58,502 bases of DNA, from contig JBFMCS010000033.1 in NCBI GenBank assembly GCA_040754315.1, positions 1-58,502 on the forward strand, given 5' to 3'. A program made the position numbers and the translations under genes. Position 1 is the stretch's first letter, and every line of letters begins with the position of its first letter. Below are positions 25,757-48,038 of this stretch, piece after piece. The DNA is from Bacillota bacterium. Lineage in GTDB: Bacteria > Bacillota > Sulfobacillia > DUSP01 > JBFMCS01. The notes beneath the pieces are model-generated. The model was not told the DNA's origin, did not search any database, and saw only the letters and a list, made by a program, of their open reading frames with translations.

Positions 25757-25840
25757 GGGCAGAGTAGGTGCTTCGCGTCAAGTGCTAGGGGATGGGATGT
25801 GGCCCCTAGACGAAAGGCCACCATCAGCGTGGACCTGCGG
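25757..25840 (+). promoter_or_regulatory. Tetrahydrofolate riboswitch
   Basis: AGAGTAGGTGCTTCGCGTC, AAGTGC, GGGATGT, ACGAAAGGCCACC and CGTGGACCTGC follow the THF aptamer consensus in order, with GCAG/CTGC closing the base. It lies 93 nt before folT. A CCTTCT segment at about 25879 could pair with AGAAGG in the folT ribosome-binding site, so control may be translational (inference). Confidence 0.9.
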
Positions 25841-25932
25841 TGGAGCGCCGCGTCCGCTGTCACATCGTAGGGAGCCTCCCTTCTCCCCGGTGTGGCTACT
25901 GCCATCCGAGAAAGAAGGAGAGGTGTTTATTT

Positions 25933-26493: not shown

Positions 26494-26529
26494 ACAGCAT
26501 CACTGTATCGATATCGACACGCTTTGCTG

Positions 26530-26561
26530 CCTGGCGCAGGGTCCGGGGAACTTGCGCCAGG
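26530..26561 (+). promoter_or_regulatory. Perfect 9-bp inverted repeat overlapping the tig -35 region
   Basis: CCTGGCGCA (26530-26538) and TGCGCCAGG (about 26553-26561) are perfectly complementary across 14 bp. The right arm contains the -35 hexamer. There is no T run, so an operator is as likely as a folT terminator. Confidence 0.5.
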
Positions 26562-26580
26562 CTTGATATAGCGGTATAAT
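26552..26580 (+). promoter_or_regulatory. Promoter of tig
   Basis: A perfect TATAAT (26575-26580) lies 17 bp from TTGCGC (26552-26557). The leader would be about 150 nt and holds two hairpins: TTGACG/CGTCAA (about 26585-26612) and a perfect GGTTTGGCC/GGCCAAACC at about 26644-26673. Confidence 0.6.
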
Positions 26581-26735
26581 TCCCGTTGACGAAGTACACT
26601 TTCGCGTCAAGGGCGCGAGCAAAGTGGATCTTCATCACGATGATGGTTTGGCCGTGGATAGCTCTGGCCAAACCGTTTCGTTGGCAGTCTGGCCATGGCT
26701 GCACCAGGTGGTGACACTAGGAGTGGGAGGTTCAT

Positions 26736-42226: not shown

Positions 42227-42234
42227 GACCTTCT

Positions 42235-42300
42235 ACCTGACCCGGGTTCTGGGTTAAGCAGGTCGTACCTGCTTCGCCGGGTCAGGTTTCTTCTTTTTTG
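42235..42300 (+). terminator. Strong branched terminator before the rnf operon
   Basis: ACCTGACCCGG (42235-42245) pairs with CCGGGTCAGGT (42277-42287); an inner hairpin AAGCAGGT-CGT-ACCTGCTT nests inside, followed by TTCTTCTTTTTT. Confidence 0.85.
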
Positions 42301-42377
42301 CCATCACGGTTTTGGCCGTTGACTGGCAGGAGATCTCCCGGTGGGATAGAAACACACACATGGTTTGGGTAATTCAC

Positions 42378-42397
42378 GGGCTCCGTCCCCGGAGCCC
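42378..42397 (+). promoter_or_regulatory. Hairpin in the rnfC leader
   Basis: GGGCTCCG-TCCC-CGGAGCCC is a perfect 8-bp stem 31 nt before the rnfC start with no T run. It may affect mRNA stability or translation. Confidence 0.4.
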
Positions 42398-42427
42398 TTG
42401 ACTCTTGGAAAAAGCGCAGGAAGAGGG

Positions 42428-43783
42428 GTGACCGAACACGTGGAGGCCGTGACCTTCCCGGGCGGCATTCATCCTCCCTACAGGAAGTCCTATACCAAGG
42501 ACAAGGCTGTGGAGAGGGCCGGCGAGCCCGAAGTGGTTGTCATACCGCTCCACCAGCATACTGGCGCGCCCAATGAGGCCCAGGTTGCCGTGGGAGACGA
42601 GGTCCGTGTTGGCCAGGTGATTGGGGCCACGGATGCCTTTGTGTCCGCGCCAGTGCATTCCAGCGTATCGGGAAAGGTGAAAGCCATCGAACTGGGGCCT
42701 CACCCGGCCATGGGAGCCAAGGTCATGTCCGTGGTGATCGAATCCGACGGGACCGAAACCCTGCACGATAGTGTGAAGCCCCGGGGCGACTACTCCGACA
42801 TGAGCCCCGATGATGTCAAGACGATCATCCGGGACTCCGGGATAGTGGGCCTGGGCGGGGCTGCCTTCCCCACGGCGGTCAAGGTGTCACCGCCCAAGGA
42901 CAAGCCCATTGACACATATCTCTTGAACGGTGCCGAGTGCGAACCATACCTCACGTCGGATCACCGCCTCATGGTGGAGAGGGCCGACGAGGTTGTCTAC
43001 GGGCTGAGGGTGCTGATGCATGCCTCCGGCACTCCCAGGGCCGTGGTTTGCGTTGAGGATAACAAGCCCGACGCCATAGCCGCTCTGAAGAAGGCCGTGG
43101 CAGGCCTGGAGAACATCGAGGTCACCGCGCTCCACACCAAGTACCCCCAGGGTTCGGAGAAGCATCTGATCAAGGCAGTCCTGAGTAGGGAGGTGCCCAC
43201 GGGAGGGCTTCCCTTCCATGTGGGAGTCATGGTGAGCAATGCGGGAACCGCGGTGGCTGTCTCTGATGCCTTCCAGAAGGGCATGCCCCTGATCGAGCGA
43301 GTGGTAACTGTGACAGGTTCCATCGTGAAGGAACCCCGGAACCTCCTGGCCAAAATAGGGACCCGCTTCGGTGACCTCATCGAGGAGTGCGGGGGTCTCA
43401 CGGGGAAACCCAGCAAGGTCCTCATGGGGGGGCCCATGATGGGAATAGCCCAGTATACTCTGGAGGTGCCCGTTATCAAGGGAACCTCTGGTATCCTGGT
43501 GCTCAGTGAGGAGGAAGCGGACTTCGGTCCCACAGTGCCCTGCGTCAAGTGCGCCCGGTGTGTGGACGTGTGCCCTGTGTCGCTCCTTCCGCTGTTCCTG
43601 GCGGCCTATTCCGAGAGAAAGATGTACGACATGGCCGAGGCCTCGAACGCACTGGACTGCATCGAATGCGGGTGCTGCAGTTACGTTTGTCCCGCACGGA
43701 GGCCCCTGGTTCACGCCATCCGCGTGGCAAAGGCGGAGATAATGCAAAAGAAGCGCCGTGAGATGCAGGCAGCCAAGAAGTAG
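42428..43783 (+). CDS. rnfC: Rnf complex subunit RnfC
   Basis: This 451-residue peripheral subunit takes electrons from or gives them to NAD. It has the N-terminal FPGGIHPPYRK, a glycine-rich NADH/FMN region (VGLGGAAFPTAVK), and two C-terminal [4Fe-4S] motifs (CVKCARCVDVCP and CIECGCCSYVCP). GTG 42428 follows AGGAAGAGGG and fits the family; the frame opens at 42365. It is the first gene of rnfCDEAB. The Rnf complex couples ferredoxin:NAD oxidoreduction to Na+ or H+ transport. Confidence 0.95.
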   Translation: MTEHVEAVTFPGGIHPPYRKSYTKDKAVERAGEPEVVVIPLHQHTGAPNEAQVAVGDEVRVGQVIGATDAFVSAPVHSSVSGKVKAIELGPHPAMGAKVMSVVIESDGTETLHDSVKPRGDYSDMSPDDVKTIIRDSGIVGLGGAAFPTAVKVSPPKDKPIDTYLLNGAECEPYLTSDHRLMVERADEVVYGLRVLMHASGTPRAVVCVEDNKPDAIAALKKAVAGLENIEVTALHTKYPQGSEKHLIKAVLSREVPTGGLPFHVGVMVSNAGTAVAVSDAFQKGMPLIERVVTVTGSIVKEPRNLLAKIGTRFGDLIEECGGLTGKPSKVLMGGPMMGIAQYTLEVPVIKGTSGILVLSEEEADFGPTVPCVKCARCVDVCPVSLLPLFLAAYSERKMYDMAEASNALDCIECGCCSYVCPARRPLVHAIRVAKAEIMQKKRREMQAAKK

Positions 43784-43803
43784 CGGGACCGGGAGGGATA
43801 GAC

Positions 43804-44736
43804 TTGGAACTAGAAAGAGTTGTAGTTTCCTCATCCCCGCATCTCAGATCACCGGCCACGGTGCCCGTGCTCATGAGGGATGTGGTCGTGGCACTGGTGC
43901 CAGCAGCCCTTGCAGGAATAGTCTTCTTCGGTTACAACGCCCTCCTGTTGACGGTGGCCTCGGTTGTGGCAGCGGTGGCGGCGGAGGCGGCCTACCAGAA
44001 GGTGGCGGGGAAAGAGGTCTCGGTGGGCGACTGGAGCGCTGTCATCACCGGTATCCTGGTGGCCTTCAACGTGCCGCCCAGCGCACCCTTATGGCTGCCG
44101 GTGGTGGGATCAGCCTTTGCAATAGTGGTGGTGAAGCAACTCTTCGGAGGCATCGGAAGCAACTTCGTCAACCCGGCCCTTGCCGCCAGGGCGTTCCTGG
44201 TGGCGTCATGGCCGGCCCACATGACCAGGTGGACGTCACCCTTCGATGCGGTTTCCACAGCCACTCCCCTGGTTACCATGGGTTCCGGGGAGGTGCCAGC
44301 CTATGCCGACATGTTCCTGGGCAACATCGCTGGGTGTGTCGGCGAGACCTCTGCCTTGGCCCTCTTGATCGGTGCGGGTTATCTCCTGGCCAGGAGGGTC
44401 ATTGACTGGCGCATACCTGGCGCGTACCTTGGCACCGTTAGTGTCCTGTCCTGGATCCTCGGACCCAGGGGCATCTTCACCGGAGACCCCCTGGCGCATC
44501 TCCTGGCAGGTGGTCTCCTCCTCGGGGCCTTCTTCATGGCCACCGACTACGTGACAAGCCCCGTAACTAAGAAGGGACGCCTGTACATGGGCATCGGCTG
44601 TGGGATCCTGACCGTTCTCATAAGGCTCTACGGCGGCTTCCCAGAGGGGGTATCCTACTCAATACTCCTTATGAACCTGGCAACGCCGCTCATTGACAAG
44701 TTTACCGGCCCCAGGGTGTTTGGCCATGCCAAGTGA
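43804..44736 (+). CDS. rnfD: Rnf complex subunit RnfD
   Basis: This 310-residue membrane subunit has eight or more hydrophobic helices. The flavinylation site is DAVSTATPL, with Thr154 as the likely FMN-accepting residue; the usual form is S/T-G-A-T, so the Gly is replaced by Thr152. ApbE encoded downstream would attach the FMN. The TTG start 43804 follows GGGAGGG. RnfE begins 29 nt after the RnfD stop, with no room for RnfG. Confidence 0.92.
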   Translation: MELERVVVSSSPHLRSPATVPVLMRDVVVALVPAALAGIVFFGYNALLLTVASVVAAVAAEAAYQKVAGKEVSVGDWSAVITGILVAFNVPPSAPLWLPVVGSAFAIVVVKQLFGGIGSNFVNPALAARAFLVASWPAHMTRWTSPFDAVSTATPLVTMGSGEVPAYADMFLGNIAGCVGETSALALLIGAGYLLARRVIDWRIPGAYLGTVSVLSWILGPRGIFTGDPLAHLLAGGLLLGAFFMATDYVTSPVTKKGRLYMGIGCGILTVLIRLYGGFPEGVSYSILLMNLATPLIDKFTGPRVFGHAK

Positions 44737-44765
44737 CCCGAAAGGGTGGGTTGGAGGTGAATAGG

Positions 44766-45377
44766 GTGTCATCCCTGACCAGGGACTTCACAAACGGAAT
44801 AGTAGGGGAAAACCCGGTGTTCCGCCTGCTCCTAGGCATGTGTCCCGTCCTGGCGGTCACCACCGCCGTGGAGAACGCCTTCTGGATGGGCCTGGCTGTA
44901 CTGTTCGTGCTTACGTGCTCGAACCTCATCGTGTCATCGGTGAAATCCGTCATACCCGACAAGATCCGTATCCCCTGTTTCATAGTTGTCATAGCCACCT
45001 TTGTGACAATAGTTGAGCTGGCGATGAACGCCTTCCTGCCGGAGATGTACGAGATTCTGGGAATATTCATCCCATTGATCGTTGTCAACTGCATCATCCT
45101 GGCGAGGGCCGAGGCCTTCGCCTCAAAGAACTCCATTCTTAACTCTGTGGCTGACGGGGTGGGAATGAGTGTTGGCTTCACCCTGGCCACTGTAGTCATC
45201 TCTGCGGTAAGGGAACTGCTGGGTACTGGCAATCTGACCTTTGCCGGGGCCTCACTCTTTGGCCCCGGGGGGATAGGCATTGACCCCGTCATGGTAATGA
45301 TTGCCCCGCCTGGCGCCTTCATAACCATGGGCATCCTGCTTGGCCTCCTGAACCTGGCCAGCAGGCGCCGGAGCTGA
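44766..45377 (+). CDS. rnfE: Rnf complex subunit RnfE
   Basis: This 203-residue six-helix membrane subunit has NGIVGENPVFRLLLGMCPVLAVTT at its start and NCIILARAEAFASKN in the middle. With RnfA it forms the ion-translocating core that binds a membrane Fe-S centre between the cysteine-containing helices. GTG 44766 follows GGAGGTGA by 5 nt; the longer open frame from 44733 overlaps the RnfD stop. In standard operons RnfG lies just before this gene. Confidence 0.94.
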   Translation: MSSLTRDFTNGIVGENPVFRLLLGMCPVLAVTTAVENAFWMGLAVLFVLTCSNLIVSSVKSVIPDKIRIPCFIVVIATFVTIVELAMNAFLPEMYEILGIFIPLIVVNCIILARAEAFASKNSILNSVADGVGMSVGFTLATVVISAVRELLGTGNLTFAGASLFGPGGIGIDPVMVMIAPPGAFITMGILLGLLNLASRRRS

Positions 45378-45393
45378 GAGGGGGACTTGGAGC

Positions 45394-45981
45394 ATGACCT
45401 ACTTCGGAATTCTCATCGGGGGGCTCCTGGTCAGCAACTTCATTTTCGCTCGTTTCCTGGGGATATGCCCCTTCCTGGGCGTCTCGAAGAAGCTGGAGAC
45501 CGCTGCGGGCATGTCCATGGCTGTCATATTCGTTATTACCGTGGCCTCGATGATCACCTGGCTCTTTAACCAGTTCATCCTGGTGCCCCTGGGCCTTGAG
45601 TTCCTCATGACGGTGTCGTTCATCCTGGTCATCGCCTCCCTGGTGCAGTTCGTGGAGATGGTGATCATGAAGGTATCGCCCGTTCTCTACCAGGCCCTGG
45701 GCATATACCTTCCCTTGATCACCACCAACTGCGCGGTGCTGGGGGCCGCCATACTGAACGTTCGTTCTCACTACGGTTTTCTTGAGGCGGTGGTGGCAGG
45801 GTTTGCGGCTGCCTGTGGCTGGAGCCTGGCCATCCTGCTCTTCGCCGGAATCCGGGAGCGGCTGGAACTCTCAGACATCCCGGAGGTCCTCAAGGGGTTT
45901 CCAATTGCCCTCATTTCCACCGGGCTGATGGCCATGAGTTTCGTGGGCTTCCAGGGCCTTTTCCAGGAGTTACTGCACTGA
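45394..45981 (+). CDS. rnfA: Rnf complex subunit RnfA
   Basis: This 195-residue six-helix membrane protein is homologous to RnfE in inverted topology. It has LLVSNFIFARFLGICPFLGVSKK at the N-terminus and ITTNCAVLG in the middle, with conserved cysteines for the intramembrane Fe-S centre. ATG 45394 follows GGGGGACTTGGAG. It is spaced 16 nt from rnfE and 14 nt from rnfB. Confidence 0.95.
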   Translation: MTYFGILIGGLLVSNFIFARFLGICPFLGVSKKLETAAGMSMAVIFVITVASMITWLFNQFILVPLGLEFLMTVSFILVIASLVQFVEMVIMKVSPVLYQALGIYLPLITTNCAVLGAAILNVRSHYGFLEAVVAGFAAACGWSLAILLFAGIRERLELSDIPEVLKGFPIALISTGLMAMSFVGFQGLFQELLH

Positions 45982-45995
45982 GGGGGTGTGTTTAG

Positions 45996-46817
45996 ATGCT
46001 CTACGCAGTAGTGAGCCTTGCCGTGACGGGGCTTGCCTTTGGTGCGCTCCTGGCGTTCGCCGCGCAAAGGTTCGCGGTACCGGTCGACCCCAGGGTTGAG
46101 GCTATCAAGAAGGAACTCCCCAATGCTAACTGCGGCGGGTGTGGGTTTGCCAGTTGCGGGGCCCTAGCTGAGGCCATTGCTGGCGGCAGGGCGCCCGTGG
46201 ACGGCTGTGGGGTTGGCGGTTCACCGGTGGCCCAGAAGATCGGGGAGATCATGGGGATTGGCGTGGAGGACAAGGAACCTCAGGTAGCAAGGGTGAAGTG
46301 CCTGGGTGGGAAGGCCGAGGCGGAAGAACTCTTCACCTATGAGGGAATCAGGGATTGCAGGGCGGCATCCATACCGCAGATCCAAGGAGGTTTCAAGGCT
46401 TGCACCTACGGTTGCCTGGGACTTGGCAGCTGCGTGAGGGTTTGCGTGTTCGGTGCCATGTCCATGGGACCCAACAGTCTTCCCGTGGTGGACGACACCA
46501 AGTGCACCGCCTGCGGGAAGTGTGTGGCGGAGTGCCCCCGGAGCATTATCGAGCTGGTGGGACGATCCCGGAAGGTGCACGTCTGCTGCCAGAACAAGGA
46601 TAAGGGCGCGGTGGCCCGGAAGCTCTGCAAGGTGGCCTGTATTGCCTGCAAGCGCTGTGAGAAGGCCTGCGAGTACGATGCCATCAAGGTTGAGAACAAC
46701 CTGGCCAGTATTGACTACTCTAAGTGCACGAACTGCGGTGCGTGCGCAGCCGCCTGCCCGCCCAAGTGCATCATCGATGAGAGGCCCTCTGAGGAGTGTG
46801 AGGTGGCGGCATCCTGA
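45996..46817 (+). CDS. rnfB: Rnf complex subunit RnfB
   Basis: This 273-residue ferredoxin-interacting subunit has an N-terminal membrane helix (about 3-24), a four-Cys site PNANCGGCGFASCG with its fourth Cys near GCGVGG, and ferredoxin-like clusters in the C-terminal half: CTYGCLGLGSCVRVC, CTACGKCVAECP, CIACKRCEKAC and CTNCGACAAACPP. It passes electrons from soluble ferredoxin into the membrane complex. ATG 45996 follows a GAGGGGGTG site. A GGTGGC/GCCACC hairpin spans the stop codon. Confidence 0.95.
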   Translation: MLYAVVSLAVTGLAFGALLAFAAQRFAVPVDPRVEAIKKELPNANCGGCGFASCGALAEAIAGGRAPVDGCGVGGSPVAQKIGEIMGIGVEDKEPQVARVKCLGGKAEAEELFTYEGIRDCRAASIPQIQGGFKACTYGCLGLGSCVRVCVFGAMSMGPNSLPVVDDTKCTACGKCVAECPRSIIELVGRSRKVHVCCQNKDKGAVARKLCKVACIACKRCEKACEYDAIKVENNLASIDYSKCTNCGACAAACPPKCIIDERPSEECEVAAS

Positions 46818-46841
46818 CACACTGTGATGCCACCAGGGGCC

Positions 46842-47045
46842 GAACGGGGGAGGAAAGCGAAAACCCGGGAAACCCCGTGCTGGAGCGGGTGTACGCGATA
46901 GAGAGACTCCCGGTTTCCGGACGGGAGAGAGAAAGAGCCGGGCATCCCCCGGCTCGCCTTGTGGGCGAACAAGAAATGAGGAGGTGACGACCCGGCCAGG
47001 GGCCTGTGGCTTGCCGCTTGAAGCCACAGGGAAAGGGCGGGGTTA
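46842..47045 (+). ncRNA. Candidate structured leader RNA before apbE
   Basis: Five stems can be drawn in about 200 nt without a gene. ACGGGG/CCCCGT is 46844-46849/46873-46878, and CTCCCG/CGGGAG is 46907-46912/46922-46927. GAGCCGGG/CCCGGCTC is 46935-46942/46948-46955, and CGCC/GGCG is 46955-46967. CCTGTGGCTT/AAGCCACAGG is 47003-47012/47021-47030. An unused ribosome-binding-like GAGGAGGTGA lies at about 46979-46988. It matches none of the riboswitch classes I could test by eye (FMN, cobalamin, SAM, THF, c-di-GMP). Confidence 0.5.
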
Positions 47046-47051
47046 AGTCCT

Positions 47052-48038
47052 GTGAAGAGGATGACATGGGTGGTCCTTCCAGTCACCCTGCTGGCTATGG
47101 CTCTATTGCCGGGGTGTTCCAGGAAACCCTTCACTGAGTCGGACTTTATCATGGACACCTTGGTTCGGATTGAGGTTCACGGCCCCAGGGCCGAGACCGC
47201 GGCAAGGGCCGCCCTGGATGAGATGAGGCGAGTGGAGTCACTCATGAGTGCCTACGTAGAAACCAGTGATGTCTCCCGCATCAACAGCCAAGCAGGCGTG
47301 GCCCCTGTAACAATATCCCCCGAGACCTCCTTCGTACTCCAGGAGGCCCTCAGGATATCCGAGGCCAGCTGGGGGGCTTTCGACGTCACCGTGGGGCCGC
47401 TGGTGGGGCTCTGGGATATCGCCGGGGAGAACCCGAGAGTGCCCTCCCCAGAAGAGATCGAGGACGCCCTGGAGAAGGTGAACTACCAGAGGCTCCAAGT
47501 GAAGGAGGGCAGGGCCTTCCTGGAGGCCCCCGGCATGAGGGTGGATCTTGGAGCAATTGCCAAGGGCTACGCCGTGGACAGGGCTGCCCAGATCCTTCTA
47601 GACCATGGTGTCACATCTGCCATCCTGGATGCTGGGGGCAACGTCTACGTCGTGGGCAGCCGGAGTGATGGCTCACCCTGGAGGGTGGGCATCCGCCACC
47701 CCAGGCGTGAGGGCGAGGCCTTGGCCGTTCTTGAGGCTTCTGATACAGGGGTAGTCACCTCCGGTGACTACCAGCGATACTTTGAATCAGACGGGGTGAG
47801 GTACCACCACATCTTCGACCCTAGGACGGGCTACCCTGCACGGGAGAGTGCCAGTGCTACGGTAGTTTCTCCCTCGTCGGTGGAGGCAGACGCCCTCTCC
47901 ACCGCCCTATTCGTCCTGGGCCCTGTAGAAGGGATGAATCTCATCGAATCCCTGGAGGGCGTTGAGGGGCTTGTGGTTGACGCCGCCGGAGAGATTACCG
48001 TATCGACAGGGCTTTTTCTGACCCGGGTCAATCCTTGA
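47052..48038 (+). CDS. apbE: FAD:protein FMN transferase (lipoprotein)
   Basis: This 328-residue lipoprotein has a signal peptide ending in the lipobox LLPGC (Cys about 24) and the ApbE domain: FIMDTLVRIEVHG, VGLWDIAG, DLGAIAKGYAVDRA, DAGGNVYVVG and HIFDPRTGYPA. It attaches FMN from FAD to Ser/Thr of flavinylation motifs, here most likely RnfD. GTG 47052 has only a weak GGGCGGGG site 9 nt upstream, and the start lies at the end of the structured leader, so expression may be controlled there. Confidence 0.93.
   Translation: MKRMTWVVLPVTLLAMALLPGCSRKPFTESDFIMDTLVRIEVHGPRAETAARAALDEMRRVESLMSAYVETSDVSRINSQAGVAPVTISPETSFVLQEALRISEASWGAFDVTVGPLVGLWDIAGENPRVPSPEEIEDALEKVNYQRLQVKEGRAFLEAPGMRVDLGAIAKGYAVDRAAQILLDHGVTSAILDAGGNVYVVGSRSDGSPWRVGIRHPRREGEALAVLEASDTGVVTSGDYQRYFESDGVRYHHIFDPRTGYPARESASATVVSPSSVEADALSTALFVLGPVEGMNLIESLEGVEGLVVDAAGEITVSTGLFLTRVNP

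Follow-up and report, generated by a model that had tools for sequence, protein, structure and literature searches.

The window, by which we mean the whole 58,502-nt stretch of DNA that was analysed, carries an rnf gene cluster followed by apbE. The genes rnfC, rnfD, rnfE, rnfA and rnfB occupy 42365-46817 and end with the rnfB stop codon at 46815-46817. A gap of 234 nt (46818-47051) then leads to apbE, and all of these genes lie on the + strand. The gap contains no convincing gene: its open frames are short, the longest on the + strand spanning 72 and 61 codons from stop to stop with no convincing coding score, and a hidden gene was rejected. Between 45000 and 48600, no promoter-like site was found on either strand, and the only terminator-like site is on the minus strand. 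Because neither a promoter-like site nor a + strand terminator was found, we infer that rnfCDEAB and apbE are probably co-transcribed, and that the spacer would form an untranslated junction within this transcript. The features of the junction are collected in Table 1.

Table 1. Features at the rnfB-apbE junction, with positions in the window and computed values where available
Feature	Position	Strand	Details
rnfB, last gene of the rnfCDEAB cluster	45996-46817	+	Pfam FeS/Fer4 domains
Imperfect GC-rich stem, rnfB-proximal half of the spacer	46874-46925	+	Pair probabilities mostly 0.8-0.93
8-bp hairpin GAGCCGGG-CATCC-CCCGGCTC	46935-46955	+	Pair probabilities 0.79-0.92
Perfect Shine-Dalgarno AGGAGGTGA	46979-46987	+	Complementary to the host's own 16S 3' end GGATCACCTCCTT
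Three-part hairpin (predicted)	46989-47044	+	56 nt, -35.3 kcal/mol
Perfect 10-bp inverted repeat CCTGTGGCTT/AAGCCACAGG	47003-47030	+	Exact; pairing probability about 1.0
apbE, FAD:protein FMN transferase	47052-48038	+	Pfam ApbE PF02424, E 2e-97
apbE signal-peptide codons GTCACCCT, able to pair with and sequester the orphan Shine-Dalgarno in free RNA	47073-47080	+	Pair probability 0.46

The apbE gene in the window is likely to encode the flavin transferase of Rnf. ApbE is the enzyme that links FMN covalently to RnfD and RnfG homologues (PMC12174285). An rnfG gene is missing from the rnfCDEAB cluster, in which rnfD and rnfE overlap (44733-44736); rnfD is also followed directly by rnfE in many relatives of the class. 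An RnfG-like FMN_bind protein containing SGATVSSKAV is encoded on another contig (L096 8868-9443, G000:C36). Elsewhere, a second apbE homologue is followed directly by a small FMN_bind protein (L097 7124-8553, G000:C60), the only other FMN_bind gene, which suggests a separate flavinylation pair. The assignment to Rnf follows from this adjacency and from the location of the RnfG-like gene, and has no bearing on the RNA mechanism discussed below.

The start of apbE has a weak local ribosome-binding site (RBS). An in-frame stop codon at 47019 excludes an N-terminally extended ApbE, and no in-frame ATG, GTG or TTG lies between that stop and the GTG at 47052. Thus, plausible starts come down to this GTG (or the ATG at 47061), and the GTG yields a well-formed lipoprotein signal, MKRMTWVVLPVTLLAMALLPGC. 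The best local Shine-Dalgarno (SD) match at the GTG is 3 nt long, and there is no other usable SD. In a sample of 310 genes, by contrast, only about 10 lack a plausible start with an SD match of at least 4 nt. The apbE genes of both order relatives likewise appear to start without a clear SD.

A perfect SD lies within the spacer with no start codon at a normal distance. The sequence GAGGAGGTGA occupies 46978-46987, and its 9-nt core, AGGAGGTGA, could pair along its whole length with the 16S tail located in the host genome at G000:C15:1876, with a hybrid energy of -14.8 kcal/mol. An exact copy of the core is present only once in the window, and one arises in 106 of 20,000 shuffles of the spacer (0.5%). 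No ATG, GTG or TTG occurs 3-14 nt downstream of it. The short open frames of the spacer were considered as its users and rejected, as the SD does not serve them. In the computed fold of the free RNA, this orphan SD has a pairing level of about 65%, to which apbE codons contribute.

Between the orphan SD and the apbE start, the RNA is predicted to fold into a three-part hairpin, set off by 1 nt from the SD and by 7 nt from the GTG. An outer stem (46989-46993/47040-47044, closed by a G-U pair) and a middle stem (46995-46997/47036-47038) enclose a perfect inner stem of 10 bp (47003-47012/47021-47030). Among shuffled sequences, a stem of at least 10 bp turned up once in 300 versions of the spacer and never in 1000 versions of the 67-nt stretch from the SD core to the start. 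This stretch folds with a z score of -3.61 (10 of 5000 shuffles as stable), or -3.98 in a second run (0 of 300), and falls within the lowest 0.14% of 67-nt segments over 58.5 kb. The probability of the outer stem is 0.49-0.57 in free RNA and rises to 0.87-0.98 if the SD is kept unpaired in the model to mimic binding by 16S.

The SD-to-start stretch is the only part of the spacer that stands out in folding. The whole spacer has a z score of -2.04 (7 of 200 shuffles as stable) and, in a second run, of -1.90 (6 of 300), which is only mildly unusual and ordinary for the host genome, where 24% of 37 sampled co-directional spacers reach -2.04 or lower. The upstream half is little more structured than its shuffles (z -1.4), and the stretch 46870-46930 gives a z score of -2.44. 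The first-pass annotation had already described a gene-free region of about 200 nt, an orphan SD inside it, a weak RBS at apbE and a perfect 10-bp hairpin, and each of these descriptions holds. Its several GC-rich stems are formally right, although the whole-spacer fold that they make up is only mildly unusual. The most informative feature is the geometry of SD, hairpin and start, the pieces of which were present in that annotation but left unconnected.

The stems nearest rnfB invite comparison with a terminator. In relatives of the same order, read-through from rnfB into apbE may be cut by an intrinsic terminator or attenuator: one relative (L048) has a clear hairpin followed by T6 after rnfB, and another (L047) has a 10-bp hairpin with a T-rich tail. 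The stem at 46874-46925 lies where several relatives carry a terminator-like hairpin, and the second stem, at 46935-46955, follows it. We consider such a terminator unlikely here, as a T-tract is absent after every + strand hairpin in the spacer, and an intrinsic terminator is defined by one. The 46935-46955 hairpin is followed by GCCTTGTGGG, and is terminator-like only when read on the minus strand, where its tail is TTTCTCTCTC. A terminator with a T-tract is nevertheless in use in the host genome, upstream of rnfC (about 42236-42300).

A promoter or operator for apbE is extremely improbable. The palindrome could be a repressor site, or a sigma-54 promoter (TGGCTTG-N4-TTGAA) could lie inside it; RpoN is encoded in the genome, and a -24-like TGGC and a TTG are in register by eye. 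However, sigma-54 promoters have GG at -24 and GC at -12, and here the -12 GC dinucleotide is replaced by GA. No sigma-70-like promoter was found, and the palindrome at 47003-47030 has no second exact copy in the genome. With up to 3 mismatches it has one other match there, which is no longer a perfect palindrome.

The rnfB-apbE spacer appears, from sequence comparison, to be a species-specific leader. An rnfB homologue is present at E<=1e-45 in 47 of 154 genomes of the class, and the rnfB-apbE spacers of relatives, recovered through RnfB, are unrelated to it in sequence and length (26-244 nt). No homologous spacer was found by DNA search in 60 relatives or among the spacers recovered from the class; these relatives belong to the same order or are more distant, and none is in the same family. 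A search for a plasmid homologue was also negative. The spacer and its palindrome are each single-copy in the genome, and a dispersed palindromic repeat (REP- or MITE-like) or mobile palindrome was rejected. Homology to the rnfC leader was likewise rejected, the local alignment score being within the shuffled range.

These comparisons do not support a riboswitch. No Rfam family matches the spacer at gathering thresholds, only chance matches to mammalian lncRNA families appear at E<=10, and the rnfB-apbE loci of 18 relatives from the class gave no Rfam family either. Like FMN and other riboswitches in Rfam, the spacer is a structured RNA near a flavin-related gene; unlike them, it has no family match or conserved core and is restricted to a single species. 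The first-pass annotation had proposed a riboswitch or processing element that sets the level of the flavin transferase relative to Rnf, and had named a simple repeat family as an outcome that would speak against this. The repeat was not seen, as the spacer is single-copy, and the remark that the RNA fits no known riboswitch class agrees with the empty Rfam comparison. The riboswitch reading itself gains no support, with the same lack of a match, a single copy, no homologous spacer in the relatives searched and an unremarkable upstream half. An effect on apbE levels through translation is nevertheless plausible.

We suggest that apbE may be translated through a hairpin-accommodated (split) RBS. 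This is the best-supported mechanism on the sequence and the folding model, and we rate it just short of an even chance. The 30S subunit would bind the perfect SD at 46979-46987 while the hairpin at 46989-47044 remains folded, so that the intervening RNA is looped out. The GGAGG core would thereby be brought to 11 nt (TGAC plus AAGTCCT) from the GTG at 47052, instead of 67 nt. Ribosomes would then actually use the distal SD, and the bridged site could set a low or structure-dependent level of ApbE relative to Rnf. SDs of the AGGAGG type in the host genome are spaced 3-14 nt from their starts, with a mode of 7-8 nt, and the bridged 11 nt falls within this range. In a rough balance of hybridisation energy and mRNA unfolding, computed with no spacing penalties, the bridged SD reaches -5.6 kcal/mol compared with +10.6 kcal/mol for the local site.

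To our knowledge, hairpin-bridged start sites are known mainly from phage T4. As summarised in PMC3014915, structure reduces the SD-to-start distance of T4 gene 25 from 27 to 11 nt, as reporter assays and DMS probing have confirmed (Nivinskas 1999; Malys & Nivinskas 2009), and this arrangement is conserved among T-even phages. The same account gives a reduction from 22 to 5 nt for T4 gene 38, tested by destabilising mutations. The apbE site resembles that of gene 25 in being intercistronic, in having a strong SD that is too distant, and in a hairpin that would reduce the spacing to the same 11 nt. It differs in that a 56-nt hairpin would cover a reduction from 67 nt, in a chromosomal gene known from its sequence and computed folding. 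As in gene 38, an SD is predicted to be brought to a functional distance by structure, although the gene 38 case is smaller and backed by mutations. In E. coli thrS, which has a split RBS, a long hairpin stays folded while the ribosome accommodates it, according to PMC3936740, citing Sacerdot et al. A long hairpin is likewise predicted within the ribosome-binding region of apbE. Unlike the apbE hairpin, that of thrS precedes the SD, and the thrS product regulates its own gene. By analogy, the apbE RBS, with its distant strong SD, a predicted stable structure in between and a looped-out spacing of 11 nt, is a candidate addition to the accommodated sites of the T4 type, with chance as the main rival.

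The apbE arrangement is unique in the host genome. We find 84 sites of AGGAGGTGA genome-wide, compared with 60 for a reversed control motif, a modest over-representation. Of these sites, 30 have a coding start at a normal distance and 16 are non-coding orphans, five of which have a clear gene start no more than about 110 nt away (46979 in the window, L090:4393, L117, L138 and L165). Read from the listed sequences, the genes at the other four have an SD of their own, and apbE alone is without one. In a 7-mer survey of a 403-kb sample, 29 far SDs were found, against 21 and 8 in two controls, so that far SDs are not clearly enriched as a class.

Two further sets of AGGAGGTGA sites were noted. At L090 4393-4436 (G000:C5), the motif precedes an 8-bp hairpin, CTTCGCGC/GCGCGAAG, after which comes GAGGCCATG of a thiamine-diphosphate-type enzyme. 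The gene's own SD is only 2 nt from its ATG, and the hairpin lies between this SD and the upstream one; from its sequence, the site may be a second, weaker candidate for a hairpin-bridged SD. The sites at position 1501 of L136 and position 1025 of L146 (minus strand) share a near-identical downstream sequence that begins with AGGAGGTGAGCGCCCTGGAA, and are probably copies of one mobile or duplicated element.

Several observations speak for an accommodated RBS at apbE. It is favoured by a perfect orphan SD, by a local SD of 3 nt that sets apbE apart from nearly all sampled genes, and by the significant structure between SD and start, with a bridging stem that becomes highly probable once the SD is occupied. 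The energy balance, the genome-range spacing, the equal spacing in T4 gene 25 and the long-hairpin precedent of thrS point the same way, as does the position of apbE as the sole SD-less gene among the five near-gene orphans.

Other considerations weaken the accommodated RBS. The hypothesis was framed after the sequence had been seen, and concerns a single, unconserved case whose closest relatives belong to another family of the order and lack a homologous spacer. Orphan copies of AGGAGGTGA arise by chance, given the modest over-representation, and the geometry is easily obtained: a single hairpin with 11 nt or fewer left outside also forms in 35% of the shuffled 67-nt sequences. A weak start may simply be tolerated, as in the order relatives; the 56-nt hairpin is far larger than those implied by the T4 spacing figures; and the SD is largely paired in free RNA, partly with apbE itself.

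The locus could instead be an ordinary GC-rich junction, a reading that we hold to be a substantial possibility, if somewhat below even. The hairpins would then be U-poor 3'-end or stability elements of the rnf transcript, the SD would be there by chance, and apbE would start weakly on its own, as little enzyme is needed. Consistent with this, 90.6 kb of non-genic sequence holds 29 perfect hairpins with stems of at least 9 bp and no T-tract, of which about a dozen closely follow a stop codon, and in several relatives rnfB is soon followed by a GC-rich hairpin or an intrinsic terminator. The commonness of the whole-spacer z score in the host genome, the SD-poor apbE starts of the order relatives and the orphan AGGAGGTGA copies elsewhere also fit. 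However, the 10-bp hairpin is 185 nt away from rnfB and 21 nt from apbE, which is not a 3'-end position. Furthermore, a perfect SD, a significant hairpin and an SD-less start are jointly improbable, with a rough, post hoc expectation of 0.001-0.006 per genome; this figure is the product of the SD-less-start rate, the chance motif density and the hairpin density, and is not a clean test.

The pairing of the orphan SD with apbE codons raises the further prospect of a cis-regulatory switch. The SD would be either paired with codons 47073-47080 (off) or free with the bridging hairpin formed (on), and a ligand, a protein or temperature would decide between these states. In the model, each pairing excludes the other and the two are close to equal in probability (0.49-0.57 for the outer stem, 0.46 for the SD with the coding sequence). 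Such control is very unlikely, however, because a partner of 7-8 bp within 100 nt is not unusual for a G-rich SD, and because no conserved aptamer-like core, Rfam class or unusually structured upstream half was found. It is also distinctly improbable that the chromosomal RBS functions solely with the 56-nt hairpin spanning the distance from SD to start, while the apbE codons compete for the SD as an inherent part of the design, so that flavin-transferase synthesis would be governed by an RNA switch with two states that adjusts ApbE to Rnf.

If the accommodated RBS of apbE is real, it would be a bacterial chromosomal example of the T4-type arrangement, with an unusually large looped-out hairpin. 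It would also be a warning for gene prediction, as a perfect SD could serve as the RBS of a start codon 67 nt away. If it is not real, the locus is an ordinary GC-rich operon junction; in either case, the riboswitch candidate is weakened.

Other structured spacers occur in the window. The leader of the rnf operon (42227-42440) ranks with the most strongly folded of the sampled spacers (z -3.5 to -4.3). It comprises the intrinsic terminator of the upstream gene, with its T-tract, and then a GGGCTCCG/CGGAGCCC hairpin just before rnfC, and has no Rfam match. The spacer at 26494-26735 has a folding z score of -4.2 and lies about 600 nt downstream of a THF riboswitch (25758-25861). Perfect GC-rich intergenic hairpins of 9-15 bp with no T-tract are abundant in the sampled stretches of the genome (L086-L105) and the window, often 10-30 nt after stop codons, and are possibly U-less 3'-end signals in this lineage.
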